Positions 1-52,078 of a DNA stretch of 64,000 nt are shown in pieces. How positions within the stretch are numbered: position 1 is the first letter of the stretch; each line of letters opens with the position of its first letter. Position numbers and translations under genes: made by a program. Where the stretch lies: the NCBI RefSeq assembly GCF_032884065.1, contig NW_027062662.1, positions 528,052 through 592,051 of the forward strand, written 5' to 3'. The notes under the pieces are model-generated. The model ran no database searches, was not told where the DNA came from, and saw only the letters and a program-made list of their open reading frames with translations. The DNA is from Artemia franciscana (Eukaryota; Arthropoda; Branchiopoda; Anostraca; Artemiidae).

Positions 1-892
1 TCATTTGAAAAAACGTTTTCATGTTTATTTTTTCATTGTTTTTTTTATAGTAATGCTAGAAAATCCTGCGCCCTTTTCATTGAATTTTTCTTCCCCCGTG
101 ACACATTCCTCAAAGGAAAGATCCTCCCACAAAGCCCTCTCCCATCAACCCCACCCCCCAAACCAAAAAATCCCCATGAAAACGTCTGTACACTTCCCAA
201 TAACCATTACTATATGTAAACACTGGTCAAAGTTTGTAACTTGCAGCCCCTCCCTCAGGGATTGTGGGGGAGTAAGTCATTCCCAAAGACATAGTTATTA
301 TGGTTTTCGACTATGTTGAACAAAATGGCTATCTTAAAATTTTAATCTGTTGACTTTTGGAAAAAAATGAGCATGGGAGGGGGCCTATTTGCCCTCCAAT
401 TTTTTGGTCACTTAAAAAGGGCACTAGAACTTTTCATTTCCGTTAGAATGAGCCCTCTCGCGACATCCTAGGACCACTTGGTCGATAAGACGACCCCTGG
501 GAAAAAAACAAAAAAAAAACAAACAAATAAATAAACACACACCCGTGATTTGTCTTCTGGCAAAAAATACAAAATTCCACATTTTTTAGATAGGAGCTTG
601 AAATTTTTGCTATAGAGTTCTCTGATATACCGAATGCGATAGTGTGATTTTCGTTAAGATTCTGTGACTTTTAATGGATGTTTCCCCCTTTTTTCCAAAA
701 TAGGGCAAATTTTCTCAGGCTCGTAACTTTTGATGACAAAGACTAAATTAATTGAAACTTAATATTTAGAATCAGCGTAAAAATTCGAATCTTTTGATGT
801 ATCTTTTAGCATCAAAATTCCGTTTTTTAGAGTTTCGTTTACTATTGAGCCGGGTCACCCCTTACTACAGTTCCTTACCACGAAGTGTTTGA
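1..892 (+). mobile_element. HER repeat copy, 3' half
   Basis: Non-coding repeat of the family that dominates the window. It contains the diagnostic blocks in order: the CTAGAAAATCCTGCGCCC block, the CCAATAACCATTACTATATG block, the GTGGGGGAGTAAGTC block, an A-rich stretch after GACCCCTGG, and CTCAGGCTCGTAACTTTTGATG. It ends in a degenerate terminal stem-loop (consensus arms CAGTTCGT and ACGAACTG around TACC) followed by TTGA. The left part of the element lies outside the window. Short open frames inside it recur in other copies as chance frames and are not genes. Confidence 0.8.
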
Positions 893-2053: not shown

Positions 2054-2738
2054 TTTTATTAAGTTAATTTTAAGTACAGAAAAAAGTTTAAAGTACCATT
2101 ATCAAAGTTCAAATGAAAAGAAACATTCTTATAGTACAGAAAGCGTTGAAAATAGTTTCAACTATATGCACAAAGTTGAAAAGTTAAAAAAAGAAGTGTA
2201 AAATAATAATATTAACTATTCTACAATAACGCATTGGTTGTTTCCTTAGATACATTCTAAATCATAGGTTTTATTTTTCCAGCTTAAAAAACAAAAACAA
2301 AACAAACAATATGTATAATTAAGTGTGCACAGATGAGAATGGCAATAAGGCTATATTTAAAATTATGATTTCCAAATTATGTTTGAGTAATTTCGGGCCC
2401 CGGATATCTCAACAGTTGACCTCAGTTGGCCACTATTATGGGAATTGCAGTCATCCTGTGTTAGCCAAATCGAAGTTTCACCCTAGAAGTAGAGGTCAGT
2501 TTATAAACAACTAAGAAATCAGTTTAATTCAGCGAACTTTGCCAGAATGGAGTTAAACACTTTCGTTGATGAATTCGCAACATTCCCAAATAATGTAAAG
2601 GAGTAAATGTTTTTTTCACAACATTTTGTTGTGAACATTTTTCACAGCTATTCAATGCTTTACAACTTTCCCATTAAAAAAATCATAATTTTATTTGAAA
2701 TTATTGACTTAGGCCTCTTAAAAAAACAATTGAAAAGA

Positions 2739-2761
2739 CTAACACATTAGAAACGTGTTAG
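2739..2761. repeat. Small hairpin
   Basis: CTAACAC (2739-2745) and GTGTTAG (2755-2761) form a perfect 7-bp stem around a 9-nt loop. Helitrons end with a hairpin shortly before CTRR. A TTAG (CTAA on the minus strand) occurs at 2709-2712, but the 26-nt distance is longer than usual, so assigning this as the 3' terminus is speculative. Confidence 0.3.
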
Positions 2762-3094
2762 AGAACCAAGTTTCGCAGGTTGACGCGGCCGTTCACTCTG
2801 AACATGAAAATTCTCAATTTTAATGTGAATGCCCATATCTTCTCCATTATTTTCGATATTTGTGTCGCGAATTCAAAATGTATCTATTATTTAAACAAAG
2901 CTTAATTCCACGTGAAAACACTGGAGAACATACGCGCACCTGCTTGTGACTATTGAATAATATGTTCAACTCCATTCTGTTGCCCCTCCCCCGCCAACGA
3001 GGAGGCGTCGCTGATGGTGATCCTAATTTCATTACAATTTCCAAATTAAAATTCGAAACGGAATGAATTAAGATGCACCGGGGGAGAAAAATGT

Positions 3095-3692: not shown

Positions 3693-6600
3693 TTAGCTAC
3701 ATCTTTGAAGAACAGCAAAAGTCATACCTGAGCAGTCCATTGCTTGCTTTCCCATCAATTTCACATTTGAATCATCGCAGAGACACCATGTGCCTTCCAA
3801 CGTTCGCCTGTAAACGTAATAGTGACCAGAGTTGAAATTAATACCTGTATGAACAACAATGGCAATAGCTCTATATCGCTCCAAAGATACGACGATATCA
3901 TTGTAGCTAACGTCTGATATGACCTCACTCATTGTGCTTTCCAACAAAATGTGATCTGGCTCAAAACCAATTATTCTTCTCGTAATTTTATGTGTCATTG
4001 CACTCCTGTCCAAGTTAATCGCAAGAAACTGCGGCATTTCAGTAAAAACTGTGTGTGATGTTAGTTGATGTTCATTTGGGCAAAATTTTCCAACAGGATA
4101 TGGACTTAACACTTCACTAAATTGAATGTCCGATGTCTCAACAACCTCTTCATGAGCGGGTGCATCGGGATTCAGAACTCCTGGAACTGGAAAATAGCAC
4201 ACTTTTCCATTTGTCATATTATCATCTATTTGGCTCCAGTTACAGCGGTGACAAGCCAAAAATTTATGATTCTTGAACTGAAATAGTCTACTAAGAGGAC
4301 TGAGGGCAGTTGTTGTGCTTGTTTCCGAGTTTTCTTCATCCATACTTCTAAACAAAGCTTCCCAAAACTCGCAGAGTGACTGCTGTTCGTCCTCAACAAA
4401 TCCATACACAGTCGGCAGCAATGATCTTAGCTGGACTGTTGACTCTATCTTGTCAAGGGACGACACTGCTAGCCGTAAAATTTCAGTTGCAACGTTGCCT
4501 TGTGAATTTTGCAGCCTATCAAAAAGTATTCTGTGTAAGCTGAAAACGCACTGAACTGCAGAGTTTGCATAGCATGAAACACCATCTCTGTTTTGGAAAC
4601 CTTTTCTTCCTGCACCAATACCCCTTTGGTAGAGCTGCTTTTGGTTGGATCGTTTCTTGTTGCCTTCAATACCTAGGATAACGCTATCACCTTTCGTTGG
4701 TAATATCGTAGCGTTTGATCTTACTTCATTTGTTATAGACATTGTTTTTCGGCTTTTTGTCTTATTTGGAAACGAATCTTCTATTGCTGGCTTTCTTTTT
4801 TCCCCTTTTCCAATGATTGCATGTTCGACATTTTTCTTCATTTTCGGATAAACATCTCCTATGCTACCTATTTCCACGACGTCCTCATTCAAATTAGTTG
4901 TGGGTGTTTGGATGATTCTCAATAATGGAAGGTCAGGTCTATAACTACTCCTAAGACGATTATACTCTGAGATTGCTTCCATGTCAGCAATAATTTTACT
5001 TGGATCAAGTTCCACAAGATGCAGCCCTGCGCTAGTGGTAACTCTGGATAATGCAACATAAATCATCCCCGGTCCAAAGCAACGACTTCCTGCATCGACG
5101 ATAGCACATTCCAGGCTGAGGCCTTGAGACTTGTGAATAGTAATTGCAAATGCTAGTTGCAATGGAAACTGTTTTCTAGTATAATAAACCTCTTTGAGCG
5201 CTTCAAATCGAACTGTAGCACGGCCTATGCTTGTCAACTGATCTTGACCATCAAATTGTACCAAAACACTAACTATTTCACCAGATGGTATACTTTTAAA
5301 CTCTTTGACGTAGCCCATGGATCCGTTTACTAAGCCTTTATCCACTGCAATGTTTCTTTGAAGCATTACTCGTGCACCAATTGATAGTACCAATGTTGTT
5401 AATGCACCAGCTGTTCGTTTGCAGTCATCTGCAAAGCTTGAAACACTTTTTGCTGCTTCTTCTTCAATTCTTTTATTTCTGACCACCGAAGAAAGACAAT
5501 CAATGGCAGTCAGTGTAACATGTTTCGAGCTCGTTTCCTTTAGCAGTGTGTTGTTTATTAGCCTACAGTCGTCGTTTGTGGGCATCAAAATAACCGGCAC
5601 TTTCCCTTCCTTACACAAATTACAATATAATTTGGTAATTTCTTCTGAGGTGGCTCGCGACATGCATCCAAATTTCCGTGTAGAAAGACACTGGAGATGC
5701 TGTTCTTCACAATTTCCAAGCCTTATGTTTGCAAGTGTATCCGCATATGGCTTGTCATTTTTTTGCCTCATGTTGATTGTCAGCTCATCATACTCAAATT
5801 CATGCCATAGATTAAAGGATCCCATGGATCCAAGTCTATTTCGGATTTCTAGACGAGTAAGAGGAATAAACGGTGGATTTGCCGACACAGGCCTCAATTG
5901 AAGGAAATCTCCAAAGAGAACAAAGTTGGCATTTCCCATTGGGAAATTAGTAGATTTAATTTCCGTCAAGCGCAAATGAATATACATCAGCATAAGAGAC
6001 GAGACCATACTTATTTCATCTATAATGAAAAGTCGAGTTCGTCCAAGGGTTTTTCTTAATGTCAGCAATTGTTCGGTGGATAAAGATGAATACTTTGCAG
6101 TTGTCTGCTGGTCAACTGGCAGGCTTAAGCATCGATGAATGGTAACACCCTTTATACTATGAGCAGCAAGTCCAGTTGGGGCCATAACAACAACTGGACA
6201 TTCCTCCCTCACGAACTCCTGACAAATGAACCTTCTAAGTACACTAATTACTCGTGACTTCCCAGTTCCCCCAAAGCCAGACACTATCAGTCTGATAGGC
6301 TTATCATTGCTGCCATTTTTTATGTTGCCTATAATTCTGTCTACAATTCTCTTCTGATCTAAATTAAGGGAATTGAAGTCATTTGACAACTCTTCACTTG
6401 TGATTGACTCTAGTAGCTGTCTATTCGCATTGACTAAATCTTCCATAGCATCAGCTGCTCTATCAATAATCTCTCCTTGTATAGCGTTATTTGGATCATC
6501 AATCTCATGTTGCCCATCAGTTAAGTCATTCATTTCAGTAGCCTGAATTTCCGTGGCTCGCTGGCGTACTCTTGTCTCAAATTCGGCATCGCATGTGGTT

Positions 6601-9600
6601 TTATTTACCAGTTTCTCATGATAGGCTACCATGGCTGGATATTTTTCACTTTCAATGCAATATGTTTCAAAGTTGTTGAAGTCATTAACCAGAATATCGC
6701 GTTCATTTCTCCATGGCTTGAACAATTTCAACAGCATACCGTAATACTGTTCTTTCTTCTCGTCGGATTCCAAAGGATTGGCCTTTTTGTGCTGTATGAT
6801 ATATGGTTTTTGAGTGCGTCGTCTTAAAAAAAACGAACCTGTTTGCAGTAACATTTTTTCATCATTGCCCCGTCGTTCGCGTTCATGCCAAGACAGCAGC
6901 TCATATAGACTCATGTGCTCCATATGCTCTGGCCTATTTGGATAAACATCAGCTACCCAGTGGGCAACATACAGATCCGAACTTTGGGGATCCTTACTTG
7001 CAATGACTTCCAATTCCTTGAATGGTTTAAGTGTCCTTTTTAGTTCTGTCACCTTCGATAAATCCACAAATCTGAATTGTCTTGAGAAACTGTACAATTT
7101 TGTGCCAAGAAGCCTATCTGCCGCCTCTACTGCTCCAACTTGACGCGTTTTAACTGAGTTTAATAGAAAAGACATTGCTCGTGGGCCCAGACCTTTGTAC
7201 GCATTATTCACTTCTTCCCACATCTCATCAATTTCTGACTTCTCACCTTTCGTCATGTAGTCTGTTATATAGTATGGCAACTTGGAGCCGATATGGCCAA
7301 TATATTGAACATCTACATTTGACAAATTGGCCAATAACAATGAGGGATTGTAATCATTGATGTACCTCTCCTTATCTGTACGAGCAATGTCATAGATCCT
7401 CTTTCTTGGTTTTTGGCGGTTTGTCCCATGAGCCAAACAATCAATCACATCATGGACTTCAGTTTGTGTTTTAGAAGGGCGAGGAAAGCCGAATCTGCAA
7501 TAACTAATCCATTTGCCTGAATTTCTTTTGAATTTCCGTTGGCAGTATTTGTTGCAGCGGTGCATCTGGTGATCGACAACGAGTTTGTGCAGGGTTGGAC
7601 TCAATAGTTTATCAGGAAATTGGCATGTGATAATGCTATCAATGTACCTTGTAACTTCATCCAGTGATGATTTTCCAATGACTGGTGCATCTTCTACCCA
7701 GAGAATGCAATGCACATGTGGAGCACCTCTCGTTTGGTATTCAATTCGCCAAAAGTAATCCTTGATTTTACCAAAGACAGGATTCAACTTTGCACAGATA
7801 AGGTTGTTGAATATGGCCCTCCATTTTTTGTGGAAATGTATAGCCACAGACACAGGGTCCATTGCTGTTAATTCAGCTGGTGTCATTTTATCGACACCAA
7901 CCACATGACTGTTGATGTCACGTAAATGTTTTATGAATTCTGGAGAATACCATTCTGCACAAGAGGCTGTAATAAATAACGTTGGTGGCCCTTCTTGCTC
8001 TATCATAGACTTGACTTTTCCCGCCAAAGCATGAAAATATTGTCGAGATCCTCTCACTTTTGACTGGACTGAAAAAATTGACGTTTCCATTTCACCGTCT
8101 CTGTGTCGAACTCGATCCAGAAAATCTTTTGCACTTTGATTAGGCCTGACAGTCCTAATCATATGTGCAACACTGTTACAAAAGTAAGACAACTCTTGAT
8201 GTTGAAAGTTGTGAAATAGATAGTTTTTATCTAAACGGAACTGTGGGTGTCTACTAAGAAGACGCCCTTTGATGTAGTCTGCATTTCGCATCGAAAACTG
8301 ACGGGCCATGTCCCGCATATGGTTTTTGCCATCAGGGAAGAGATTTGGAAATGCTTTGATGTCCAATTCCTCTTGAAATAGATCCTCCCCTAAACCATGT
8401 AATCTTTTCAATTGAAATTGGTCATTTTCAATGTTTTTATTGTTCTTGAAGTCATCTATAAAGTCTTTCGGTACTGACGAGTCTAGTGGTTGTATAGAGA
8501 AATGCTCTACTAAGTGTGATTTGGCATCATTTGTAAGTTTTTCTAATATTGCTCCCTCTGGTATTTCATAAGTTTGCTCTTGTCCCTTTTCTTTTTCTAA
8601 TAAACGACTCTCAAGAATCTCTTGCAACTCCTCTAGTGTGTATGCTTTGATGTTCCTGTACACCATATTGTTTTCTTTCAACCAAATTAGTGCTTTATGT
8701 ATTTTCCTCAAATCAATAAGTGCTGTCCAAACATTTTTATTATAGGTTGGTTGACCGTTGACAAGTATCACAAAGCTGTCAATGTTGAGCAACTTGTCTG
8801 GTTGTACATCCGCATTTGCTTGAACATCTACGGGTAGATATACAATTCTTCCTTTAAGAGCCTCTGTCAATTCGTTTGCAGGTCTTTTTGATCCCATAAC
8901 TTGTCCAAGTCTAACAACAGTAAGACATGGCATGACAAATCTTATCAGTGCCAGTTCAAATTTATTCAAATTCTTGATGCAATCTGGAGTTGCTTGGACG
9001 TTAAGGTTATTTCCAACAGAACGTACATTTTCCTTATTTGAGAGCATTTTTCCTGCACAATATTCACACAGCTTGAATGTTTCCAATAAGTACTCCATCC
9101 AGTCAATTGACATTTGGAGATCATCGCTCTCTTCTTTAGGTACATACTTATAAGTTTCTTCTTGAATAATTTGGGTCATATAATCAAAGCCCTTTCGCTT
9201 CGAAAAAGAGCCGAGAACTTTTACCTCATTTGGCAGTTTTAACTGCTCGCAACAATCACAAGGAACTGATGGGTATTCGTCTCTTATTTCAGCTACTTTC
9301 ATAATATTTTTCCCAAAGATATTCATAATTTCCGATTCTTCTGTAGATACCCGAGGAGGCATAGGCTCCAGAAACATTGTTAAGTTTTTCATCCTCAGTT
9401 TTGAAATTGCAGCTTCTACTATGGATCTTAATTGTGCAATACTACCTTTGCTCCTAATTGTTTTCACATCTCTAATGAGTCTGCATTTTTCTATTGCCTT
9501 GTACAAGCTTCTAACAAAGTTTGCTAGAACAGGAAAATGTGGCGCCAATGCTCGTAGAGCACGAAGGAAGCTGTAACATCCATTGCATGGGTGACAATAA

Positions 9601-11720
9601 ATTGAATGTCCCATTTTGTCTGGGTGAATTAACTGGTTTGTGCAATAATTGAATTTATCCAAATACAATTCAACAAGGGAATCCGTTAACGAATCTTCTT
9701 TGTTCATTTCGGAAATTGTGCAAAAGAGGATATGACACATTTCAATGTCAATTGGCTCATATTTGCAGAGATCTCGGTGACATTTCCATTTAAATGGGTG
9801 ATTTCTGTCTGCCAACCGACTTGTGACAGCAGAATTTTTTTCGGTGGTCCTACTCTCATCAGTATTTTTATTCAATTCCTTTACATTATATCTTTGGCAA
9901 ATATCAATGAGAATTTTACTTTGTATGTTAGTATTCCATTCTTCATCATCAAACTTGGTAGAAGACTGCGATTCTGATCCTTCAACTAACCTTTTGAAAA
10001 AAGGAGATACAAAATTAGGAAAGCTGTGCCCAGTTTCATTATCTTGCTCGTTTTGTGTTGTCGTCACACAAAAGCATCTATTACCAACTTCCACAGCTTG
10101 ATTATTACCATAATCGAAAAATACTGCTTTTCCTTCCTCGTCAATTGGAATTGCAGTGTAAAGGTCACCAGTGTGACCACATCTCAAACAATGGTTGACT
10201 TCAAAGATTTTATACACTGATTCGAGATGATAAGCTTCATTATACACAGAATGTTCCATGACATTTCCCATTGCACGGGTGAATTCTTCTACATCAGGGA
10301 CATAATCTGATTTTGGTAGATGCTCCATAAATTTTGAGCACTGCTTGTGAATGCTTGCATGTAGCTTTGCTAGTGAATTTGATGATATGTTAATGACTGC
10401 GTTAGCCTTTTCTAGCAGTAGCTTAAGTTCAATGATTGAATACTTTCTCTTATTTTTTTTGTACATATCAAAGATGGTATTCAAATTTTCTAAATCTGAG
10501 TTCATTTTTATTACAGTCCTGGACCTATATGCCCACCTTTGTCTATAATTTCTCGCAAAGAATCTGGATTGCCTGTTATTAGCCAGAACCGAATTGTGGT
10601 TTGACTGGCTTATGAAGCAGGACATATCGAAAGACTTGGCACTGGTTTGTGCTTGGCTCTGACTTTTCTTTACCTTATTTGAAGCATAAATTTTCCTTTT
10701 TTTTTGTGTACATCTCATTGCTAGTTCAGGCAGAGTTGAGTGATATGAGGATGTTTCCTCATGTTTTTTCGTCAACCTGCGGCTTCTGTAAAAATTCTTA
10801 TAGAATTTGATAACTTTGTTTGATGTTTTTCTCCTCTGTTCCTTACGAGAAAAATCAATTCCTCTGTATCTTTTCAACATATTGTAAGCAGTAACCTTAT
10901 CAATGTGATTTCTTTGATACATTTCATCATTCCTGTATTTGCTTATTTGTTTCAAAGAGACCGATTTGATGTAATTTCGACGAAACTCTTCATTTTCTCT
11001 ATATTTGATGTTTCTCCGGATTGATGCAGACTTGATAGCCCTCAGGCGATAAGTCTCATCATTTTTGTATCTATCCTTTACACGTTCTGATGCTGACTTG
11101 ACATAATTCTGACGATACTCTTCATTATCTCTGTATTTGATGTTTCTCTTCATTGATGCAGACTTGATAGACCTCAAGCGATAGGTCTCATCATTTTTGT
11201 ATCTATCCTTTACACGTTCTGATGCTGACTTGACATAATTCTGACGATACTCTTCATTATCTCTGTATTTGATGTTTCTCTTCATTGATGCAGACTTGAT
11301 AGACCTCAAGCGATAGGTCTCATCATTTTTGTATCTATCCTTTACACGTTCTGATGCTGACTTGACATAATTCTGACGATACTCTTCATTATCTCTGTAT
11401 TTGATGTTTCTCTTCATTGATGCAGACTTGATAGACCTCAAGCGATAAGCCTCATCATTTCTGTATTTGTCCTTCACATGCTCTGATGATGAATTGATGC
11501 AATTGTGACGAAACTCCTCGTCATTGTTATATCGTTTTAAAACTCGACGTTTTTTTATAGCAGCTGCTTTCTCATCCTGCTGAAATCTGATTTTGGCACT
11601 CAATTTGAGAACATCCTTGTTTTTCCCATAGTACTCCTTCTTTTTGCCAGCAACCTGTTTAGCTCGACTGTCATACCTTTCCTTCTCCCTAAGTTTCTTC
11701 TTTCGTTCTTGTGATACCAT
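3693..11720 (-). CDS. Helitron Rep/Pif1 helicase with C-terminal ubiquitin-specific protease domain
   Basis: A single 2675-residue frame that would carry out rolling-circle transposition. Order of parts: basic tandem repeats (about residues 60-300); Cys-rich and DUF6570-like regions (about 500-1000, name from memory); HUH Rep nuclease with TLFITAS (1247-1253), PHVHC with H1335 and H1337, and YYITDYMTK with Tyr1484 and Tyr1488; SF1 Pif1-like helicase with GFGGTGKS (1815-1822, Lys1821), IIDEIS (Asp1901-Glu1902), a GDFLQL motif, IHKSQG (near 2190) and YVALSRV (near 2222). The last ~320 residues look like a USP (peptidase C19): Cys box GFQNRDGVSCYANS with Cys2383, CHRC zinc-type pair, GHYYVY with His2633, and WCLCDDSNV with Asp2649/2650. 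All key residues are present and no stop or frameshift breaks 8 kb, so recent activity is plausible. ATG at 11720 is the first Met; no intron is evident. Known Helentrons carry an OTU-type cysteine protease; a USP at this place is unusual to my knowledge. Confidence 0.93.
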   Translation of the reverse strand: MVSQERKKKLREKERYDSRAKQVAGKKKEYYGKNKDVLKLSAKIRFQQDEKAAAIKKRRVLKRYNNDEEFRHNCINSSSEHVKDKYRNDEAYRLRSIKSASMKRNIKYRDNEEYRQNYVKSASERVKDRYKNDETYRLRSIKSASMKRNIKYRDNEEYRQNYVKSASERVKDRYKNDETYRLRSIKSASMKRNIKYRDNEEYRQNYVKSASERVKDRYKNDETYRLRAIKSASIRRNIKYRENEEFRRNYIKSVSLKQISKYRNDEMYQRNHIDKVTAYNMLKRYRGIDFSRKEQRRKTSNKVIKFYKNFYRSRRLTKKHEETSSYHSTLPELAMRCTQKKRKIYASNKVKKSQSQAQTSAKSFDMSCFISQSNHNSVLANNRQSRFFARNYRQRWAYRSRTVIKMNSDLENLNTIFDMYKKNKRKYSIIELKLLLEKANAVINISSNSLAKLHASIHKQCSKFMEHLPKSDYVPDVEEFTRAMGNVMEHSVYNEAYHLESVYKIFEVNHCLRCGHTGDLYTAIPIDEEGKAVFFDYGNNQAVEVGNRCFCVTTTQNEQDNETGHSFPNFVSPFFKRLVEGSESQSSTKFDDEEWNTNIQSKILIDICQRYNVKELNKNTDESRTTEKNSAVTSRLADRNHPFKWKCHRDLCKYEPIDIEMCHILFCTISEMNKEDSLTDSLVELYLDKFNYCTNQLIHPDKMGHSIYCHPCNGCYSFLRALRALAPHFPVLANFVRSLYKAIEKCRLIRDVKTIRSKGSIAQLRSIVEAAISKLRMKNLTMFLEPMPPRVSTEESEIMNIFGKNIMKVAEIRDEYPSVPCDCCEQLKLPNEVKVLGSFSKRKGFDYMTQIIQEETYKYVPKEESDDLQMSIDWMEYLLETFKLCEYCAGKMLSNKENVRSVGNNLNVQATPDCIKNLNKFELALIRFVMPCLTVVRLGQVMGSKRPANELTEALKGRIVYLPVDVQANADVQPDKLLNIDSFVILVNGQPTYNKNVWTALIDLRKIHKALIWLKENNMVYRNIKAYTLEELQEILESRLLEKEKGQEQTYEIPEGAILEKLTNDAKSHLVEHFSIQPLDSSVPKDFIDDFKNNKNIENDQFQLKRLHGLGEDLFQEELDIKAFPNLFPDGKNHMRDMARQFSMRNADYIKGRLLSRHPQFRLDKNYLFHNFQHQELSYFCNSVAHMIRTVRPNQSAKDFLDRVRHRDGEMETSIFSVQSKVRGSRQYFHALAGKVKSMIEQEGPPTLFITASCAEWYSPEFIKHLRDINSHVVGVDKMTPAELTAMDPVSVAIHFHKKWRAIFNNLICAKLNPVFGKIKDYFWRIEYQTRGAPHVHCILWVEDAPVIGKSSLDEVTRYIDSIITCQFPDKLLSPTLHKLVVDHQMHRCNKYCQRKFKRNSGKWISYCRFGFPRPSKTQTEVHDVIDCLAHGTNRQKPRKRIYDIARTDKERYINDYNPSLLLANLSNVDVQYIGHIGSKLPYYITDYMTKGEKSEIDEMWEEVNNAYKGLGPRAMSFLLNSVKTRQVGAVEAADRLLGTKLYSFSRQFRFVDLSKVTELKRTLKPFKELEVIASKDPQSSDLYVAHWVADVYPNRPEHMEHMSLYELLSWHERERRGNDEKMLLQTGSFFLRRRTQKPYIIQHKKANPLESDEKKEQYYGMLLKLFKPWRNERDILVNDFNNFETYCIESEKYPAMVAYHEKLVNKTTCDAEFETRVRQRATEIQATEMNDLTDGQHEIDDPNNAIQGEIIDRAADAMEDLVNANRQLLESITSEELSNDFNSLNLDQKRIVDRIIGNIKNGSNDKPIRLIVSGFGGTGKSRVISVLRRFICQEFVREECPVVVMAPTGLAAHSIKGVTIHRCLSLPVDQQTTAKYSSLSTEQLLTLRKTLGRTRLFIIDEISMVSSLMLMYIHLRLTEIKSTNFPMGNANFVLFGDFLQLRPVSANPPFIPLTRLEIRNRLGSMGSFNLWHEFEYDELTINMRQKNDKPYADTLANIRLGNCEEQHLQCLSTRKFGCMSRATSEEITKLYCNLCKEGKVPVILMPTNDDCRLINNTLLKETSSKHVTLTAIDCLSSVVRNKRIEEEAAKSVSSFADDCKRTAGALTTLVLSIGARVMLQRNIAVDKGLVNGSMGYVKEFKSIPSGEIVSVLVQFDGQDQLTSIGRATVRFEALKEVYYTRKQFPLQLAFAITIHKSQGLSLECAIVDAGSRCFGPGMIYVALSRVTTSAGLHLVELDPSKIIADMEAISEYNRLRSSYRPDLPLLRIIQTPTTNLNEDVVEIGSIGDVYPKMKKNVEHAIIGKGEKRKPAIEDSFPNKTKSRKTMSITNEVRSNATILPTKGDSVILGIEGNKKRSNQKQLYQRGIGAGRKGFQNRDGVSCYANSAVQCVFSLHRILFDRLQNSQGNVATEILRLAVSSLDKIESTVQLRSLLPTVYGFVEDEQQSLCEFWEALFRSMDEENSETSTTTALSPLSRLFQFKNHKFLACHRCNWSQIDDNMTNGKVCYFPVPGVLNPDAPAHEEVVETSDIQFSEVLSPYPVGKFCPNEHQLTSHTVFTEMPQFLAINLDRSAMTHKITRRIIGFEPDHILLESTMSEVISDVSYNDIVVSLERYRAIAIVVHTGINFNSGHYYVYRRTLEGTWCLCDDSNVKLMGKQAMDCSGMTFAVLQRCS
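11040..11435 (-). repeat. Three 132-bp coding tandem repeats in the Helitron N-terminus
   Basis: Three nearly identical 132-bp units (44 residues each) start at 11435, 11303 and 11171 on the minus strand. Each unit is itself two related ~22-residue halves of the pattern IKSAS...KYR-NEEYR and VKSAS...RYKNDETYR. More diverged half-units flank the array on both sides. The peptide is highly basic and probably helical; a DNA- or RNA-binding role is inference. Confidence 0.9.
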
Positions 11721-14700
11721 TGCAATTGCTGTCTAATTCCCTGTTGACTAAGAGAAAGTGTCTTCTTTCTCACAATATTGTAACCTAAAAAGCCTTAAAA
11801 TATCCCTAAGAAGCTGCAAATGTGAAAACTGATTAGTAAGATTATCCAAACCTAGGACTAAAAACTGTCAATAACACTTTAGATGAAGCACCTGAAAAAA
11901 AGAAATGAAACAGAATTAGCATTATTAGAATAAGATAAAACAAAGAGAAAGGTTTGTATATAAATTAGAAAAGAGAATTCCCCCAAGAAAGGTAACATAA
12001 GGAGACCTAAGAAAATAAAAAAAAATATCCACACAACATAAAATCTTAAACAGCATACTTGCCAAAGAAAAAATTTAAAATAAGAACAGAAGAGAAACTA
12101 AAACTAATGTCTTACAACAGTTTTATCTGAACACAACATTTTGTAGTGTTAAAAATAATTGAGCTGTCAGTGTACCCAAAGGTGTGCTGACAATGCATAT
12201 ATGATGCTACTCAAATGTGATGCACATGAAATTTTTAATCTTATAAGAATTAAAACATATGAATGTTTTGGTTTATAATATCCCATTGTACTAACAAAGC
12301 CCTATTTTCTTTTACAGTTTTATCCAATACTATGTAATAATAACCAATAGCTTGGCTACAAGCTGACAGTGATTCACCTTCTACAGCAGAAAGGGCCAAA
12401 AAATATACTTTGTAAGAAAAATATAAACTCCTTAAATACCAGGTAAACGTCTGAATATAAGCATCTCTAGACTATAATCCAAAGAAAAACTAGCAATAAA
12501 ATAAGTTTTACTTGTATATAAAGCTTTGAGTGGTTCCTAAACCCCATGCCTAATCTTTTGCAACCCCAAAACTCTTCAGGGGGAAAGGTATAGGTTTAGT
12601 GTTCTAGGAATGCTGGTACAAATTATAAAACAGAATGATTTCAATTCCCTTTTTGATGAAAATACTTCCTACATTTGAAAAAGAAATAGAACAATCTTAA
12701 ATGAAAATTTTAGGTAGTCTTATGCTCAAATTAAAATTACAAAGTAGACATTTATTCCTTAAGCAAAAAAGGATGTATAAGGCAAAAATATTCTATCAAG
12801 AATTAGGCTAATAAAAAAATTTCATTATGTTGACGATGCAAATCTACTTTTTTTTGTCTAACTTTCTATGTGCCTATGGTTGTTTTTCTTTATGTTGTTT
12901 TTATAGTGTCAGTGATATATTATTTCATTACATGTGGATTGTTTGATTACAATAACTGGTTTCAAAATATTCAACTCTGACTTGGTAGATGTTATGAAGA
13001 TTACATTATAACATAGTAAAAAATTGGTCAAGAATGGCACAACTCAATAAATAGTGGGAATAAAGGTATTTAACATATGTTTTGAAGAAGCATAAAAATG
13101 TATGGAAGATATATATTTTGAGAAATAGAATTCTGGAAATCATTCAAATTATCAGATGATTCAAAGGAACTTTAGAACAGAATGGATAGTTGTGGTGTAA
13201 ATAATCTTTTGTTATTATATGAAATTATCTGATAGTCAATTACCATACCAATAGTTATATCAAGAAATTAGTATTAATGAAATAATTAATTTGTAACTAC
13301 TTAACTGGATGACATGAGTTTATGCTAAGAACAAATACACAAAAGTACAAGTTAGAAAAGATTGTAAGCATATTGGCACCTTCCCAAAATGATCCTGGTT
13401 AGCTCAATCAATTACAAGCTCTGCCAACTTCAAAATTGAGGTAAGCTTCAACAAGAAGAGCAACCTAGAAAAGTTTAGACTATTTTCAATATATATCCCC
13501 CACACACTAAACACCAAGCAACTTTAAGCAATAAAGTTGCATACTACAAAAAGCTTGAATATAAGCTGACAATTGTAAAACTATAACTATAGAATAGGCA
13601 CTAAAATAAGTGATGAGTACACTCTTCCTTAAAGAAAATGAAGAATTGAATCTTCTTAATATGTTATTGATGCACAGTGGATGCACCTTAAAAAAAATTT
13701 CTTCATACTATGAAGTAAAAACTGTTGTCTCAACAGTCAATAGGATTATACAGTTAAATAGTCAATAGCACTAATTGTAAGCTTATCATTTCCAAACATT
13801 GGTGCATAAAGCAAGTCAAGACATTTTCATTGACAGTCAAATCATATTTTGAGAAGCTTGTTCATATCCCTGGTTAACAGCCCATCATTTATCCTACCAC
13901 CCTCCACCCCTACAAAAAAATTTAACATTCAAGGCTATATAAAACAAAAATGTCCCAGGTAAGCTGTACAAAAACAGCATTATAATTTTAAAGTAAAAAA
14001 GTTTATGAAAAGCAAGAAATTTAGCTTGTAATGTACACTGAATCAAATAAAAATTTTCAACTTTTATATAGCAAAAAATCCCATGTAGGCTATTCTTGCC
14101 CTACAGCAGATATAATCTGTTGTAGATATACAGCAGACATCCCAAAAAATGAAAAAAATATTTTTTTGATTAAATAAGAATTGCTAAAACCATCTTATGT
14201 TATGGTAATAGAATGCTTGAGCAGTTATAATAGGCTTGTGGTGATAAAATTATAATAGTAATATTGCACCATTATTCTCATTTTGGACCAAATGAGACAA
14301 TAATCAAAGATTAATATCCATAATTGACCATCCAAGTGTTTTCAAGAAAATGCTTCACATCTCTAATTTTTCTTATTTCCCTCCCTAATGGATGGATAGG
14401 AACCTTTGGTTAAAAAAAATTGATGTTGGTCTACATTTATTTATGCGCCTAGCCTATCTAGAAAAATTGAAATTAACGCATTTTGAAGGAACTTCTACTG
14501 TGCACAACCCCCTCCCCTTTGATAAAAATATACATAGGCTAGCCAATTTTATTTATGTTTTTGTTTCTGTACTCATTCTATTTATGAGTGCACACTTAAA
14601 ACAAGAGTGACACATGGAATATAGTTTGGGATAAATATCTGCACATTAGTGGTTTTGGGGTAAATGTTTTGTGCATATTATGAAATAAGAATTGCCTTTT

Positions 14701-18807: not shown

Positions 18808-20456
18808 AAGTATTTTTAGAACTCCTCATATGCGTAATAATCTCTGTTCGTTTTAAGTTTCAATGGTACTCCTTATTTTCAATTGAAAGAATTTTTCCAT
18901 GTTTATTTTTTCATTGAGTAATTTCTGTTCGTTTTATGTTTTAATGTCGCTCCTTACTTTCAGCTAAAAAAATTAGTTTTTTTTAATTTAATTTCTGAAC
19001 GTTTTTGAACTAATGCATGTTTGGTTTTGGCTCTCCGCACATAAATTATTAAAATGAAATTTATATATTAATTCTTTTTTTGGCTAAATGGCTTTCTCTT
19101 AGTTTTGATCAGACGATTTTGAGAAATAAGGGGTGGAGAAGGAGGCCTAGTTGCCCTCAAATTTTTTTGTTACTTAAAAAGGCGACTAGAACTTTTAATT
19201 TTTAACGACCGTTTTTATTAGTAAAAAATATACGTAACTGAAGAATTAACTTACGTAACAAACTTTCATAACCTTATATTTTTATTATGTATACGAAGGG
19301 GTTTGTACCCTCGTTAATACCTCGCTCTTTACACTAAATCGTAAGTTTTGTCCCAATTCTTTAAGAATGACCCCTGAATCAGAAAGGCGTTAGAATAAAT
19401 AGTTGAAATTACTAAAAATACTTTAGCATAAAGAGCAAGGTATTTATCTTCTCCTAAATACCTCGCTCTTTATGCTAAAGTATTCTTAGAACCCGTCATA
19501 TGCGGAATAATCTCTTTTCGTTTTAAGTTTCAATACTACTTCTTCCTTTCATTTGAAAAAACGTTTTCATGTTTATTTTTCATTGTTTTCTTACAGTGAT
19601 GCTAGAGAATCCTGCGCCCTTTTCATTGAATTTTTATTCCCCCATGACAGATTCCTCCAAGGAAAGATCCTCCAACATAGCCCCCTCTCCTCAGCCCCAC
19701 CCCCAAACAAAATAAAATCCCCCTGAAAACGTCTGTACACTTCCCAATAACCATTACTATATCTAAACACTGGTCAAAGTTTGTAACTTGCAGCCCCTCC
19801 CCCAGGGATTGTGGGGGAGTAAGTCATCCCCAAAGACATAGTTATTATGGTTTTCGACTATGCTGAACAAAATGGATATCTCAAAATTTTAATCCGTTGA
19901 CTTTTGGAAAAAAATGAGCGTGGGAGGGGGCCTAGATGCCCTCCAATTTCTTTGGTCACTTAAAAAGGGCACTAGAACTTTTCATTACCGTCAGAATGAG
20001 CCCTCTTGCGACATTCTAGGATCACTTGGTCGATGCGATGACCCCTGGGGAAAAGAAAAAAAAAACAAAAAAACAAAAAAACAAAAAAACAAATAAACAC
20101 GCACCCGTGATTTGTCTTCTGGCAAAAAATACAAAATTCCACATTTTTGTAGATAGGAGCTTGAAACTGCTACAGTAGGGTTCTCTGATACGCTGAATCT
20201 GATGGTGTGATTTTCGTTAAGATCCTAAGACTTTTAGGGGGTGTTTCCCCCTATTTTCCTAAATAAGGCAAATTTTCTCAGGCTCGTAACTTTTGATGGG
20301 TAAGACTAAACTTGATGAAACTTATATATTTAAAATCAGCATTAATATGCGATTCTTTTGATGTAGCTATTGATATCAAACTTCAATTTTTTAGAGTTTT
20401 GGTTACTATTGAGCCGGGTCGCTCCTTACTACAGTTCGTTACCACGAACTGTTTGA
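18808..20456 (+). mobile_element. HER repeat copy, near full length
   Basis: Follows the previous copy head to tail and ends in a complete terminal stem-loop at 20456. In its middle, at 19420-19481, a 27-bp arm has been duplicated in inverted orientation (see separate entry). Non-coding. Confidence 0.8.
19420..19481. repeat. Short-spacer inverted duplication inside HER
   Basis: Arms 19420-19446 and 19455-19481 are 27 bp each and differ at one position; the spacer is 8 nt. Most HER copies carry only one arm here (as near 30745-30775), so this is a secondary inverted duplication. The copy near 42450-42511 has the same structure. Confidence 0.8.
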
Positions 20457-20612
20457 TAACACTAGGCTTAACAAAATTAAATATTTGGAATCAACAGAAT
20501 ATGCCGCTTTTTTTAATATATTTATTGATGTTAATATTCCGTTTTTTAGAGTTTCGCTTACTATTGAGCCGCGTCTCTCCTTACTTGTAGTTCTTTACCG
20601 TGAAATATTTGA
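20457..20612 (+). mobile_element. Diverged HER terminal fragment
   Basis: A ~155-bp relic that contains only the last HER block (TTTTTTAGAGTTTCGCTTACTATTGAGCC) and a degraded stem-loop ending TTTGA. It lies just downstream of a complete HER end, so two HER termini sit in tandem. Confidence 0.6.
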
Positions 20613-25470: not shown

Positions 25471-25558
25471 TTGTTGTTGTCTTTTCTTAAAGATGAAAAG
25501 AGCTCATTTTCAAAGCAACCAGTCATTGTTACAAGTAAGAGTAATTTTTCTTTTTTAG

Positions 25559-26228
25559 GTCGAATCTTCCCTTACTTGTTCCCATTACACCACTGCAAAG
25601 ATTATTTTTGAATAGTCCCAATCTTGTAGCAGTTAATGAGCGGCTTAAAGAAGATAGCTTAATGATTGAAAAGAGGACACAAGCTATTTCTGAGGCCCTT
25701 GAAGGAGCAAAGCAAAGTATAAGGATTCTTGTAGCTAAACTGACGAATACACTTTATGGAGACTTCAAAGACGCTAGAAGAAGGGCCAAAGAAATCCAGA
25801 ATGATCTGTCATCTCTAACGGATATGGATATTTTAAATAAAAACAGCTATTGCCCCAGACTTAAAGTTCTTGAAGGTTTGTATAAAAGACTTGAAGAAAC
25901 ATCTTCTGTCTTGAAAGCTATAAGACGGATTAAAAATCATCAAAGTAGTGTTTCATCATTTGCAACTGTTTTTGAAAATCATCAAGTGAGTGCTTTATCA
26001 TCTGCAAGTGTTTTAGTTCAAGAGGCACTAGCTGCTGAACAGATCAAAGTTGAAAACTTGCAGGAAGAATACTGCTGTCTACTTGAGCAAGGCAAAGAAA
26101 TTAAGGTTCGACAGGAAGACGTTAAAAAAGAGATTCATAAAAAGAAATTGGAGATGGAAGAGAGATTAATAAGACAAAAACAATTTTACTTAGTGTCAGA
26201 GGAAAACCTTGATTGTATACACAGCTAA
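25559..26228 (+). CDS. Putative exon 2 of the coiled-coil protein (C-terminal part)
   Basis: Preceded by the polypyrimidine tract and TTTTTTAG at 25558. The first base completes a codon begun in the exon at 20893-21173; the frame then reads SNLPLLVP and continues for about 222 residues to TAA at 26226-26228. The product is Lys/Glu-rich with long predicted coiled coils (NERLKEDS...; EEYCCLLEQGKEIKVRQEDVKKE-type heptads) and one short CPRLKVLEGLYKRLEE segment. No enzyme motif is visible and I do not recognise the family. Two further copies of this exon lie at 36765 and 43546, both damaged, whereas this copy is fully open. That favours it as the intact member. An AATAAA follows the stop by 72 bp. 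Confidence 0.55.
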
Positions 26229-31289: not shown

Positions 31290-31480
31290 TTATATTCCCT
31301 GTGTCCGGGTCGTCATTTGTGTCCCGGTGTCTCGGTCTGTAATTTTTCTTTGAGTGTCCCGGTCGCCATTTATATTCCCTGTCCCGCTTGTCATTTGTGT
31401 CCCGGTGTCCCGGTCTGTAATTTCTCTTTGAGTGTTCCGGTCGTCATTTATATTCCTTGTGTCCCGGTGTCCTGGTCTGT
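31230..31480. repeat. C-rich tandem array (GTCCCGGTCGTCATTTAT type)
   Basis: Irregular repeats of GTGTCCCGGT, CGTCATTTATATTCCCTG and CTGTAATTT CTCTTTGAGTG over about 250 bp, inside the decayed helicase. On the minus strand it would read as repeated Asp/Asn/Arg/Gly/Thr-rich peptides (NDDRDT-like). It probably replaced or expanded part of the helicase reading frame. Confidence 0.75.
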
Positions 31481-32074
31481 AACATACGACAATAGATCAA
31501 TTGTCTTGTAACTTTGTTCACGACCCCATTCTACACATGTAGAAATAGAAGCAGTACGATTAGGTGAAGGCATTCCCAAATGCTTGAGAAGGCACAAATC
31601 TTCAATCATAACTAAAGTGCAGTTATAAATTTCTGTTGTAAAGTCCGAGGTCATATTTGACCTTTCTAGCCGTATTCGATGGAGTATATTCTCGGCCATT
31701 TGCGATTTGTATTTCTCCCATAACTCTGCACGCTTTCTTTTCTTACTTTCTCTATTAGCCGTAAGCCTTTTGGCATTAGCTCTTTGAGCAGCTCCCTCGG
31801 CTGTTTCTTCTGCCATTGTAGGTTCTTCTGGCATTTTAAGATCTATATTAAAAATGTCTCTTTGATGTTGTGATTCCTCGGCACGCTTTCTTTTCATACT
31901 TTCTCTATTAGCCGCAAGCCTGTTTTCACGCTGTTGTTGTGATTCCTCGGCACGCTTTCTTTTATTACCTTCTCTATTAGTCGCAAGCCTTTTGACATTA
32001 GCTCTTTGAGCAGCTTCCTCGGCTGTTTCTTCTGCCATTGTAGGTTCTTCTGTCATTTTAAGATCTATATTCAA
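31448..32074 (-). pseudogene. Helitron N-terminal basic region fused to a helicase-proximal fragment
   Basis: Minus-strand frame of 208 codons. It begins with repeated units (AAQRAN-KRLATNRE, KRKRAEESQQQREN) typical of the basic N-terminal region of arthropod Helitron proteins, then joins directly to IYNCTLVMIEDLCLLKHLGMPSPNR, which in complete Helitrons lies just before the helicase domain. The whole Rep nuclease and much of the helicase between them are missing, so this is an internal deletion. It runs into the C-rich array downstream. Confidence 0.8.
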
Positions 32075-32110
32075 AATTTCTCTTTGAAAGGCCTTCTTAT
32101 ATACTTATAA

Positions 32111-33495: not shown

Positions 33496-34237
33496 TTAGA
33501 CTAATGTTGCCCCATGTAAATAAATAAAAAAAAAGTTTTTCTAACTGAAAGTAAGGGGTGGCATTATAACTTAAAACGAACAGAGATTATTCCGTATAAG
33601 ACAGGGGCTGTCCCCTCCTCAACGCCCCACTCTTTACGCTAAAGTTTGACTCTTTCTCACAACTCTTTAAAATAAATATAAAGATTATCGCTTATACCGG
33701 CCATAAATTTTACAAAATTCAAACTTTACTGTGAATAACGAGGTATTGACGAAGTAGGCGAGCTTCCTCATATACTTACAATAAGGGGGTTTACTCCCTC
33801 GTCAATAGCTACCTTGCTCTTTATGCTGAAGTTCAAATTCTGTTCCAATTCCTTAAGAATGACAATTGAATCACAAAGGCCGTTTTGTATCAGATTAACG
33901 ACGCTTCTTGACTACTAAGGTCCCTGCGTCGGCCCTGCGGTGAATAGCCTTTGGCAGGAACCGAACAAAGGCCGTTTAATTGGAATAAATAGCTCTTTTG
34001 AAATTGCGAACAAAGGCCGTTTAATTGGAATAAATAGCTCTTTTGAAACAGCGAGGTATTGATGAGGGGACGAATCCCCTCATATACATAAAAATGTCTG
34101 TTCGTTATAAAGTTTAATGGTACTCCTTACTTTCAGTTGAAAAAAACTTTTCTTTTTTTAAATTTTATTTCTGATCGTTTTTAAAGTATGCTGGATATCC
34201 AGCGCCCCCTTCATGGATATCCAGCGCCCCATTCACT
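33496..34237. mobile_element. Fragmented HER sequence
   Basis: Starts with one fold-back arm (CTGAAAGTAAGGGGTGGCATTATAAC ... CTCTTTACGCTAAAG), followed by jumbled HER pieces. Near 33960-34050 there is a short direct repeat of GAACAAAGGCCGTTTAATTGG. Between 34186 and 34230, ATGGATATCCAGCGCCCC is repeated at the junction with the retrotransposon fragment. Confidence 0.6.
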
Positions 34238-35110
34238 GAGTAATATGATACTTTTTAGACTGAGAGATGCTGTAGACAAAGTTTCAAGGGAAGAACAATG
34301 CGGTTTTAGAAAAGGTAGAGGATGTGTTGACCAAGTTTTCACTCTTAGGTTAATAATTGAGAAGTCCCTTCGGTGTCAAACACCTTTGGTCCTCAGTTTT
34401 ATCGATTTTGAGCACGCTTTCGATTCTGTTGATAGAAGAGTGTTAGCAAAGGTCTTATCCTCATATGGTATACCAGAAAAATACATTAAAGTGATTTGTG
34501 CAATGTACGAGAATAATACTACAGCGATTAAGGTAGGAAATGAGGTTCGCAACTGGTTTTGTATTAGATCAGGAGTTAAGCAGGGTTGTGTTTATATTCC
34601 ATATAAACACAACCCTGCTTAACTCCTGATCTAATACAAAACCAGTTGGACATCATTTTGATGGACTTCGTCTTAAGGAGCACAGGAAAGGCAATTGGTG
34701 ACCACGGAATCAAATGGGGAGTAAAAACGCTCCTGGACTTAGATTATGCTGATGATTTAAGCCTATTAGATGAAAGTATGAGCAAAATGAATGAGTTTTT
34801 AGAGGTTTTGCGAGTTCAGGGTGCTAAAATAGGCTTGAAAATTAATGTTAAGAAGACTAATACACTAAGGCTAGGAATAAGTGAAGATGAAAAGGTGACA
34901 TTGGGTAACAAAAAGATTGATCAGGTTGGGAGCTTCACTTACCTTGGTAGTATTATTAGTAAAGATGGTGGGAGCAGTGAAGATGTTAAAAGCAGAATAG
35001 CCAAGGCTCATGGTGTTTTTTCACAGTTAAAAAAAAGTTTGGAAGAATGGAAAGATAAGTTTGCAAACCAAGATTAGAATATTGGAACTGACAATGTTGG
35101 AATTAGACGT
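34238..35110 (+). pseudogene. Non-LTR retrotransposon reverse transcriptase fragment (5'/middle part)
   Basis: Encodes EEQCGFRKGRGC (fingers), FIDFEHAFDSVDR (palm), SGVKQGCV, then after a palindromic disruption ILMDFVLRSTGKAIG and DLDYADDLSLLDE (YADD catalytic box), SFTYLGSIISKDGG and EDVKSRIAKAHGVFSQLKK. It frameshifts near 35045 and ends. The LSPF segment normally between QGCV and the IILMDF region is replaced by an inverted copy of the preceding 47 bp. The 3' end of this family is represented by 52079-52650, with which it overlaps by ~110 bp. Inactive. Confidence 0.87.
34551..34647. repeat. Perfect 47-bp palindrome with 3-nt spacer
   Basis: Arms 34551-34597 and 34601-34647 are exact reverse complements around TCC. 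The left arm is original reverse transcriptase coding sequence (NWFCIRSGVKQGCV region); the right arm is its inverted duplicate and replaces the following conserved segment. Confidence 0.97.
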
Positions 35111-36560: not shown

Positions 36561-36764
36561 ATAACCGTTCGTTACGTGTTTTTAAGCGAAATGAAGATCG
36601 TATTTGGCCTCAAACACGAAAATGGTAGCTTCCTTCTTTTGTTTAATGAAATAGTTTTATGTTCAACTGTCAAAATTGCTGTTGTCTGTTTTTTAAAGAT
36701 GAAAAGAGCTTATTTTCAAAGTAACCAGTTATTGTTACAAGTAAGAGTAATTTTTCTTTTTTAG

Positions 36765-37434
36765 GTCGAGTCTTCCTTTACTTGTTCCCACTACACCTCT
36801 GCAAAGATTATTTTTGAATCGTTCAAATCTTGTAAAAGTTAATGAACGGCTGAAAGAAGATAGTTTAAGAATTGAAAAGAGAATACAAGCTATTTCTGAG
36901 GCTCTTGAAGGAGCAAAAGAAAGTATCAGGATGCTTACAGATAAACTGATGAATACACTTTTTGGAGACTTCAAAGACTCTAAAAGAAGGGCCGAAGCAA
37001 TCCAGGATGAACTGTCATCTTTAAGGGGCATTGATATTATAGATAAAAACAGCTATTGCCCCAGACTCAAAGCTCTTGAAGGTTTTTGTAAGAGACTTGA
37101 AGAAAAATCGTCTGTCTTAAAAGCCATAAGACAGATCGAAAATCATCAAAATAGTGTTTTATCTTTTGCGAGTGTTTTTGAAAATCGTCAAATTAGTGTT
37201 TTATCATCTGCAAGTGTTTTAGTCCAAAAGGCTCTAGTTGCTAAACAGATCAGAGTTGAGAACTTACTGGAAGAATACGGTTGTCTAATTTTGCAAATAA
37301 AGAAAATTAAGGCTCGACAGGAAGACGTCGAAAAACAGATTGCTAAAGTGAAATTTGAGATGGACTAGAAATTATTAAGACAAAAACAATTTTACTTAGC
37401 GTCAGAGGGAAATCTTGATTCTATATGCAGCTAA
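36765..37434 (+). pseudogene. Copy B of the coiled-coil exon, premature stop
   Basis: Same acceptor (TTTTTTAG at 36764) and same frame as the exon at 25559. It is open for ~200 codons, then hits TAG at 37366-37368 where copy C has CAG; the last ~20 codons are still recognisable up to TAA. No partner for exon 1 is visible nearby. It could still be transcribed as a truncated paralogue, but a pseudogene is more likely. Confidence 0.7.
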
Positions 37435-42511: not shown

Positions 42512-43480
42512 ATTTTTAGAACCCCTCATATGCGTAATAATCTCTGTTCGTTTTAAGTTTCAATGCTACTTCTTCCTTTCATTTGAAAAAACGTTTTCAT
42601 GTTTATTTTTTATTGTTTTCTTATAGTAATGCTAGAAAATCCTGCGCCCTTTTCATTGAATTTTTCTTCCCCCATGACAGATTCCTCCAAGGGAAGATCC
42701 TCCAACATAGCCCCCTCTCCTCAGCCCCACCCCCAAACAAAATAAAATCCCCCTGAAAACGTCTTTACACTTCCCAATAACCATTATTATATGTAAACAC
42801 TGGTCAAAGTTTGTGACTTGCAGCCCCTCCCCCAGGGATTGTGGGGGAGTAAGTCATTCCCAAAGACATAATTATTATGGCTTTTGACTATGCTGAACAA
42901 AATGGCTATCTCAGAATTTTGATCCGTTGACTTTCGGAAAAAAATGAGCGTGGGAGGGGGCCTAGATACCCTCCAATTTTTTTGGTCACTTGAAAAGGGC
43001 ACTAGAACTTTTCATTTCCGTTAGAATGAGCCCTCTTGCGACATTCTAGGACCACTTGGTCGATACGATGACTCCTGGGAAAAAAAAACAAAAAACAAAA
43101 CAAACAAACAAACAAATAAATACGCATCCGTGATTTGTCTTCTGGCAAAAAAATACAAAATTCCACATTTCTGTAGATAGGAGCTTGAAACTTCTACAGT
43201 AAGGTTCTCTGATACGCTGAATCTGATGGTGTCATTTTCGTTAAGATCCTACGACTTTTAGGGGGTGTTTTCCCCTATTTTCCTAAATAAGGTAAATTTT
43301 CTCAGGCTCGTAACTTTTGATGGGTTAGACTAAAATTGATTAAACTTATATATTTAAAATCAGCATTAAAATGCGATTCTTTTGATGTAGCTATCGATAT
43401 CAAATTTCCATTTTTTAGAGTTTTAGTTACTATTGAGCCGGGTCGCTCCTTACTACAGTTCGTTACCACGAACTGTTTGA

Positions 43481-51600: not shown

Positions 51601-52078
51601 CTTGTTTTTTCATTAAATTACACTAAAAGGACACAAAACACAAAATTATTCTTAAATTTCCTTTCGTCCTTCATTGTCATCAATAAATCATGACTGTTTG
51701 TTTTGACGAGCTAATACCTGTCTCCAAAGAACTTGCATATACAGAGAGGCTTAGCTTTAAACACAGAAGCTGACAATACATAGAAACTTATTTTAAACAC
51801 AAAAACCGAAAATTTTTGAATTGTAAAGTACCAAAGGGAGGGAGGCTTTAAATCTGTTAAGTGTATTTGCTGTTTTCTAAACTATGTCACACGAATTACG
51901 CATAACTCCAGCTAAAACCACAAATAAATTTTTTGTCTGTAGTCTTTAACGCCATCACTATGCAGCGACTTTCTTTAGTGCCATGACTATTCACACAAAT
52001 TCGTCTCATCTTTGTTTCCTTTAAAAATATTTCTTTGTGAATCTCTGTAGTTCTTTTTTTTTTTTAATTTTTTTCTTG
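51601..52078. other. Unassigned spacer
   Basis: About 480 bp between a fold-back and the retrotransposon fragment. AT-rich, with no gene or HER block. Confidence 0.4.

Follow-up and report, generated by a model that had tools for sequence, protein, structure and literature searches.

What is a ubiquitin-specific protease (USP) doing at the end of a transposon's Rep-helicase protein? The question is raised by a 64,000-nucleotide stretch of the Artemia franciscana genome (contig NW_027062662.1, positions 528,052 to 592,051; hereafter the window), in which an earlier note had recognised a Helitron protein fused to a C-terminal USP. The window gene belongs to a multi-copy Helitron-type rolling-circle transposon in which one protein joins a HUH Rep domain, a Pif1 helicase and the USP, and we consider it probable, though well short of certain, that the USP shields the transposition complex from the proteasome.

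The gene occupies one open frame, of a length that would arise at the window's base composition with a chance probability of about 10^-85, and the proposed single-frame fusion was borne out by Pfam domains placed along it. Residues are numbered here from the first codon after the upstream stop, the first Met being residue 5, and the parts of the gene are as follows.

3693..11732, minus strand: Rep-helicase-USP gene, a single stop-to-stop frame of 2,679 codons plus stop, with the first Met codon at 11718-11720
10972..11516, minus strand: 132-bp tandem repeats, 4.1 copies, encoding a basic 44-residue repeat near the N-terminus
8646..9020, minus strand: DUF6570 (Pfam, residues 905-1029)
7701..8255, minus strand: Helitron_like_N / HUH Rep domain (Pfam, residues 1160-1344, 92 bits), with HVH at residues 1339-1341
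7257..7274, minus strand: Rep tyrosine motif YYITDY, residues 1487-1492, with Y1488 and Y1492 spaced four apart
5700..6368, minus strand: PIF1-like helicase domain (Pfam, residues 1789-2011, 88 bits), with Walker A GFGGTGKS at residues 1819-1826
3744..4598, minus strand: USP domain (Pfam UCH, residues 2379-2663), placed by Pfam, structure model and fold match
4572..4574, minus strand: catalytic Cys codon, C2387, in the Cys box DGVSCYANS
4080..4253, minus strand: USP fingers with zinc-ribbon cysteines C2494, C2497 and C2551; fourth ligand uncertain (FCPNEH, H2555 possible)
3822..3824, minus strand: catalytic His codon, H2637, in GHYYVY
3774..3776, minus strand: third triad residue, D2653, in CDDSN

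The protein thus has the HUH Rep with two tyrosines that is expected of a Helitron, and its Pif1 helicase, in the same frame, keeps an intact Walker A motif. The C-terminal domain matched Pfam UCH (PF00443) at 82.3 bits against a cut-off of 23.9, over positions 3-241 of the 254 in the profile, and at 89.1 bits when this piece was searched alone. The window protein gave no match to OTU (PF02338) or VTD (PF04843, Herpes_teg_N), nor to our models of the OTU and VTD domains of Helitrons. The structure prediction for the domain was confident (pLDDT 86.9) and its top structural matches were USPs, including two named only as spliceosomal particles, in which we take the matching chain to be USP39; an earlier model from five sequences was poor (pLDDT 46.4) and was not used. 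The Cys, His and Asp boxes stand in USP order at C2387, H2637 and D2653, in agreement with the Cys2383 and His2633 of the earlier note, which were counted from the first Met; D2653 is our choice of third triad residue, after the pattern that we take from human USP7. At the USP zinc finger (CxxC..CxxC), three cysteines are conserved, with Glu at the fourth aligned position and a His one residue on; zinc is absent from some USPs. Profile, catalytic residues and modelled fold therefore support assignment of the domain to peptidase C19 (USP) rather than OTU, as the note had proposed.

An assembly join of two loci was ruled out as the source of the fusion, because other loci of the same genome carry it in one frame: it is complete at L017 (2,701 aa) and L023 (2,492 aa), and helicase and USP share a frame at L014, L021, L022, L024, L025, L027 and, with only the last part of the helicase, L011. 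The 1.27-Gb genome contains 126 UCH matches, of which 20 were taken with long flanks. Seven copies (family A: L009, L010, L011, L012, L014, L017, L018) are 96-98% identical in nucleotides to the window element over the main stretch, and less so toward its 5' side; they are spread over large contigs of 36-71 Mb (C1, C2, C6 with two, C7, C19 with two), L011 and L017 lying adjacent on C6. The L017 gene is intact, and the frame of the other six is broken by stops, shifts or deletions. L013, on contig C3032, is the window's own locus on a second contig, 100% alike with some 6 kb extra near window position 16280, and was not counted as an independent copy. Six further copies (family B: L021, L022, L023, L024, L025, L027) show 64-66% DNA likeness to the window element, and among them L023 has an intact gene. 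The USP is conserved across these two diverged families, with the triad (third residue Asp or Asn) kept in seven of seven audited family A rows besides the window, L013 included, and in all six rows of family B. L010 was excluded from this audit for two stops in its USP, and its three triad motifs are visible in open pieces. The window gene is thus part of a dispersed, multi-copy Helitron-type element.

How far does this arrangement extend? A search with the Rep-helicase core found 326 proteins, of which 120 were listed and used, and models of USP, OTU, ULP1 and VTD were run on these and the window protein (121 in all). At least one protease was recognised in 98 of the 121: OTU alone in 49, USP alone in 22, VTD alone in 13, ULP1 alone in 12, OTU with USP in one and OTU with VTD in one, with three of the 12 ULP1 calls partial (19-41 bits) and several OTU calls also partial (P0047 and P0074, for example). 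USP, OTU and ULP1 lie C-terminal of the helicase and VTD N-terminal of Rep, and USP and OTU are found N-terminally too in P0100, P0102, P0107 and P0121. Pfam agrees on the layout for P0002 (OTU), for P0025, P0027, P0034, P0037 and P0063 (USP), for P0069 and P0080 (ULP1) and for P0103 (VTD). Rep-helicase-USP fusions, which the earlier note had thought worth seeking in other genomes, occur in proteins labelled Rhodnius prolixus, Linepithema humile, Nasonia vitripennis, Bemisia tabaci and Cyamophila willieti. A first search with USP against long proteins had found none among 952 candidates, a limit of that method, as the Rep-helicase search later found USP carriers; viral contigs scanned with USP and with Rep-helicase yielded no relatives. 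Judged by their predicted domains, these proteins show USP, OTU and ULP1 alternating in one C-terminal slot, a wider biology than a note on a single locus could see. In P0025, P0094, P0098 and P0102, Ser followed by Asp stands where the third triad residue would be, which recalls the Cys-His-Ser triad of USP30. The Rep-helicases P0106 and P0036 are listed with PF01661 and PF01936, which we take to be the macro and NYN domains.

To order these changes, core trees were made from 49 chosen Rep and Pif1 rows (802 columns) and from 73 chosen rows, with the N-terminal-protease clade as outgroup by assumption. In the 49-row tree, the window protein groups with L017 and L023 in one clade (100/100); its sister consists of OTU carriers, represented by nine of P0002-P0021 (100/100), and the USP carriers P0025 and P0027 branch off next outside the two (98/99). 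Sister to a second clade of OTU carriers is the USP carrier P0030 (96/96), and the ULP1 carriers form a single clade. The 73-row tree is concordant on these points, with 89/99 at the node joining P0025 and kin. A constraint uniting all C-terminal OTU carriers of the 49 (P0064 aside) was rejected by the approximately unbiased (AU) test at p 6e-97, and one joining the window clade to P0025/P0027 without the OTU clade at p 2.7e-9; these p values are optimistic, the groups having been named after the tree was seen, and the likelihood gaps are 187 and 124. Given the assumed root, the simplest history starts with USP in the C-terminal slot; OTU then displaced it on at least two occasions and ULP1 on one. 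USP is then probably the older occupant, a reading that depends on the root chosen, and several gains of USP would be possible under another root.

Two proteins look like replacements in progress. P0064, with a core among USP carriers, has a USP without catalytic Cys and His (E 2.4e-31 with a model that never saw it; Pfam misses it), followed by an OTU with its motifs, of which Pfam covers the first two thirds and which the OTU tree places (96/91) with that of P0065, a member of the second OTU clade. It has the look of a half-way replacement by a module from another Helitron. P0100 appears to be a parallel case with two USPs, the N-terminal one intact and the C-terminal one dead. In this tree, which is weakly resolved, the first clade's OTUs group together (100/100) and those of the second clade are not one group.

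Substitution patterns set the USP between the core and the linker. Between the window gene and L023, nonsynonymous divergence (dN) is 0.24 for Rep, 0.30 for Pif1, 0.48 for the USP and 0.78 for the linker just before it, so the USP behaves as a conserved domain that is looser than the core. Synonymous sites are saturated in comparisons of family A with family B. Paired with L023, other family B copies gave USP substitution ratios of 0.14-0.57 on 3-23 changes, and the pair L025-L022 gave 0.86 on 4.

The same genome also has USP frames whose retrieved surroundings gave no Rep-helicase match (L015, L016, L019, L026, L028). These stand-alone USPs and both Helitron families form one clade (100/100), within which L015/L016 and P0122 group with family B (97/92). 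P0123, an unnamed database USP, is identical to L028, and P0124, labelled Artemia franciscana, groups with the genome's stand-alone USPs, at best 78% alike to those fetched. The USP ratios of L028-L026 (0.38 on 193 changes) and L028-L019 (0.40) suggest constrained genes; that of L026-L019 is 0.73. The element may have given rise to the stand-alone USPs as host genes, or may have taken its own USP from them, and the tree does not decide between the two. Helitron USPs stand apart from human USP46 and USP2 (95/94), with P0102 outside; these two are the only cellular USPs in the tree, which does not show a single origin of Helitron USPs. P0042, P0078 and the second P0058 USP, all fragments, were left out of the first USP tree, and P0049, P0064, P0033, P0035, the first P0058 USP and the second P0100 USP also out of the later one. 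At L020 (C4112:9910-10725), an open frame of 2,446 codons has a USP close to its start and may be an N-terminal USP fusion.

What might the USP do for the element? Helitron Rep-helicases nick and unwind DNA, and HUH nucleases bind DNA covalently through a tyrosine. We infer that the USP would take ubiquitin off the Rep-helicase itself, or off host factors at the nicked DNA, and that the deubiquitinated complex would evade proteasomal removal long enough for transposition. The earlier note had likewise suggested protection of the transposition complex, or removal of ubiquitin from chromatin at the target, a mechanism that is still inference. Because unrelated protease folds fill the same slot, the kept trait appears to be isopeptidase activity, not one fold. 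Proteasome protection has been proposed for the VTDs of Helitrons, and those of zebrafish cleave ubiquitin chains by assay (Erven et al. 2022, PMC9741609, used here, like the other papers cited, in part).

Several observations weigh against this proposal. Among the 121 proteins, 23 are without a recognised protease, and while eight of these end well inside the helicase, P0106 ends at its last part and six end at most 50 residues past it, the remaining eight end in a tail of 116-251 residues that yielded no recognised domain. P0033, P0035, P0049 and P0078 have lost the catalytic Cys and have no other recognised protease, so activity is not always needed. Pairs within the young family A gave USP ratios of 0.4-1.2 on 5-26 changes, no clear purifying selection; this weak signal is compatible with recent copies drifting and is no proof of current selection. 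ULP1 proteases usually act on SUMO, and the common substrate may therefore not be ubiquitin. Finally, protease activity, expression and transposition are all predictions from the sequence.

A bolder version, which we regard as doubtful, holds that one dedicated isopeptidase slot is refilled again and again by unrelated folds (USP, OTU and ULP1, with VTD at the N-terminus) because HUH Rep ends covalently bound to DNA. Its target would be the covalent Rep-DNA adduct, from which a fused deubiquitinase or deSUMOylase would erase the marks that flag DNA-protein crosslinks for destruction, shielding the intermediate; this would explain why deSUMOylases such as ULP1 serve too. USP would be ancestral in the C-terminal slot, and some stand-alone host USPs would have been domesticated from it. 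This version has to contend with DDE transposons, which form no such covalent adduct. Some of them also carry OTU or Ulp1 (PMC2836005).

Other explanations start from the origin of the domain. The USP could be a recent passenger, a captured host gene fragment with no part in transposition; gene capture is a known Helitron habit, and the genome's stand-alone USP frames are close to the element's USP. We find this very improbable in view of a fusion present in two Rep-helicase families some 35% apart in DNA, the retention of the triad in every one of the 13 audited rows other than the window, a USP more conserved than the adjoining linker, and the C-terminal USPs of proteins labelled with the five species named above; the stand-alone USPs are moreover interleaved with the element USPs of the genome, so that some may derive from the element. 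A later arrival, in which the window lineage re-acquired a USP from the host after an OTU-carrying ancestor and OTU was the older occupant, is unlikely but deserves more weight: the sister clade P0002-P0021 carries OTU, the window USP is nearest to the stand-alone USPs of its own genome and not to the USP of P0025, and the tree roots rest on assumption. With the N-terminal-protease outgroup, however, USP occupies the deepest C-terminal branches and stands beside both OTU clades, and the separation of Helitron USPs from the two cellular ones, within the limits given above, points the same way. The remaining alternative concerns function, and makes the domain a processing protease that cuts a polyprotein between the Rep-helicase and its other parts instead of a deubiquitinase. 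It strikes us as improbable: USPs characteristically cut after ubiquitin, and USP, OTU, VTD and ULP1 have ubiquitin or ubiquitin-like substrates in common and no common peptide site. The assayed zebrafish VTDs, likewise, are deubiquitinases (PMC9741609), although for the Helentron OTU proteolysis of Rep-helicase subunits is among the roles put forward (PMC4067079).

Several known systems come close to the window element. The VTD and OTU Helitrons and Helentrons of Erven et al. (2022, PMC9741609) are, like the window element, animal Rep-helicase transposons with a deubiquitinase-type cysteine protease, and a benefit of deubiquitination that different deubiquitinase classes could supply was already suggested there. 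Their proteases are VTD (herpes tegument-like) and OTU, whereas that of the window is a USP; USP terms come up at six places in that paper, never for a USP in a Helitron, Ulp1 is absent from its main text, and the parts examined hold no tree of replacements in one slot such as ours. Ginger1 transposons likewise carry a C-terminal OTU or Ulp1 in a DNA transposon protein, and C19 was once linked to a transposase, in a T. vaginalis protein with transposase_11 and peptidase C19, but these are cut-and-paste transposases and not rolling-circle Rep-helicases (PMC2836005). OTU Helentrons are rolling-circle elements with a protease of proposed role in transposition, and combine an AP endonuclease with OTU (Thomas et al. 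2014, PMC4067079); the window protein was found with neither, and has a USP instead. Pfam gave no Exo_endo_phos match in it, the positive control P0121 having one, and since no AP-endonuclease domain was found, the window element does not fit the published definition of a Helentron. The icefish Helitron2 Helinoto (Capriglione et al. 2014) reportedly has three deubiquitinase-like domains, as its title says. Like the window element it would be a Helitron with such domains, and should any of the three belong to the USP class, Helinoto would have been the first Helitron reported with one. The earlier note knew of no description of a USP in a Helitron, and none was found in the open-access literature as far as it was covered, with nothing in the parts consulted of PMC4289320, PMC6544945, PMC7599744, PMC12910113, PMC13317346 and PMC6387122; Helinoto, for which the title does not give the class, could pre-empt this.

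The rest of the window adds some detail on the element and its surroundings.

2050..about 16250, minus strand: repeated element, least extent, from gapped matches to dispersed copies; a different repeat abuts at 2050

In five copies, likeness to the window ends at 2050, and beyond it they share sequence missing from the window. Flank repeats examined for element termini (5'-TC...CTRR-3' with hairpin, or Helitron2-type) gave no convincing end. Past the point equal to window 2050, L034, L035, L036 and L037 have a second 3' part (window 2087-2835, 76-78% alike) in the same direction, and therefore carry tandem 3' parts. A dispersed repeat of about 830 bp, present many times and in either orientation at roughly 70-93% (window 64-892, 1227-2054, 19572-20457, 42640-43481, 59584-60426 and others), looks like a short non-autonomous element; at 2028-2049, just at its junction with the Rep-helicase element, it has a perfect palindrome with 9-bp arms, ACAGTTCGT-TACC-ACGAACTGT. 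Three plus-strand open frames (25545-26228, 36751-37368, 43651-44214) are related to one another, measure about 190-230 aa and match no Pfam family above cut-off; they are perhaps a local gene or repeat family. The minus-strand frame at 31448-32104 has repeated RLAANRESMKRKRAEESQ-like units, which to our eye resemble the basic N-terminal repeats of Helitron proteins, and is possibly a relic of another Helitron. Reverse transcriptase (RVT_1) pieces, with a frame having a sub-threshold DUF6451 match, lie at 34185-35077 and 52025-52639 on the plus strand and are LINE-like. Rfam and tRNA scans of the 64-kb window gave no match.

With this element, the USP class joins the deubiquitinases carried by rolling-circle transposons. 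Unrelated ubiquitin and SUMO protease folds that alternate at one position are natural evidence for selection on activity and not on structure, and which host ubiquitin or SUMO pathway restricts Helitrons becomes a testable question. The stand-alone relatives further suggest how host genomes may come to acquire new USP genes.
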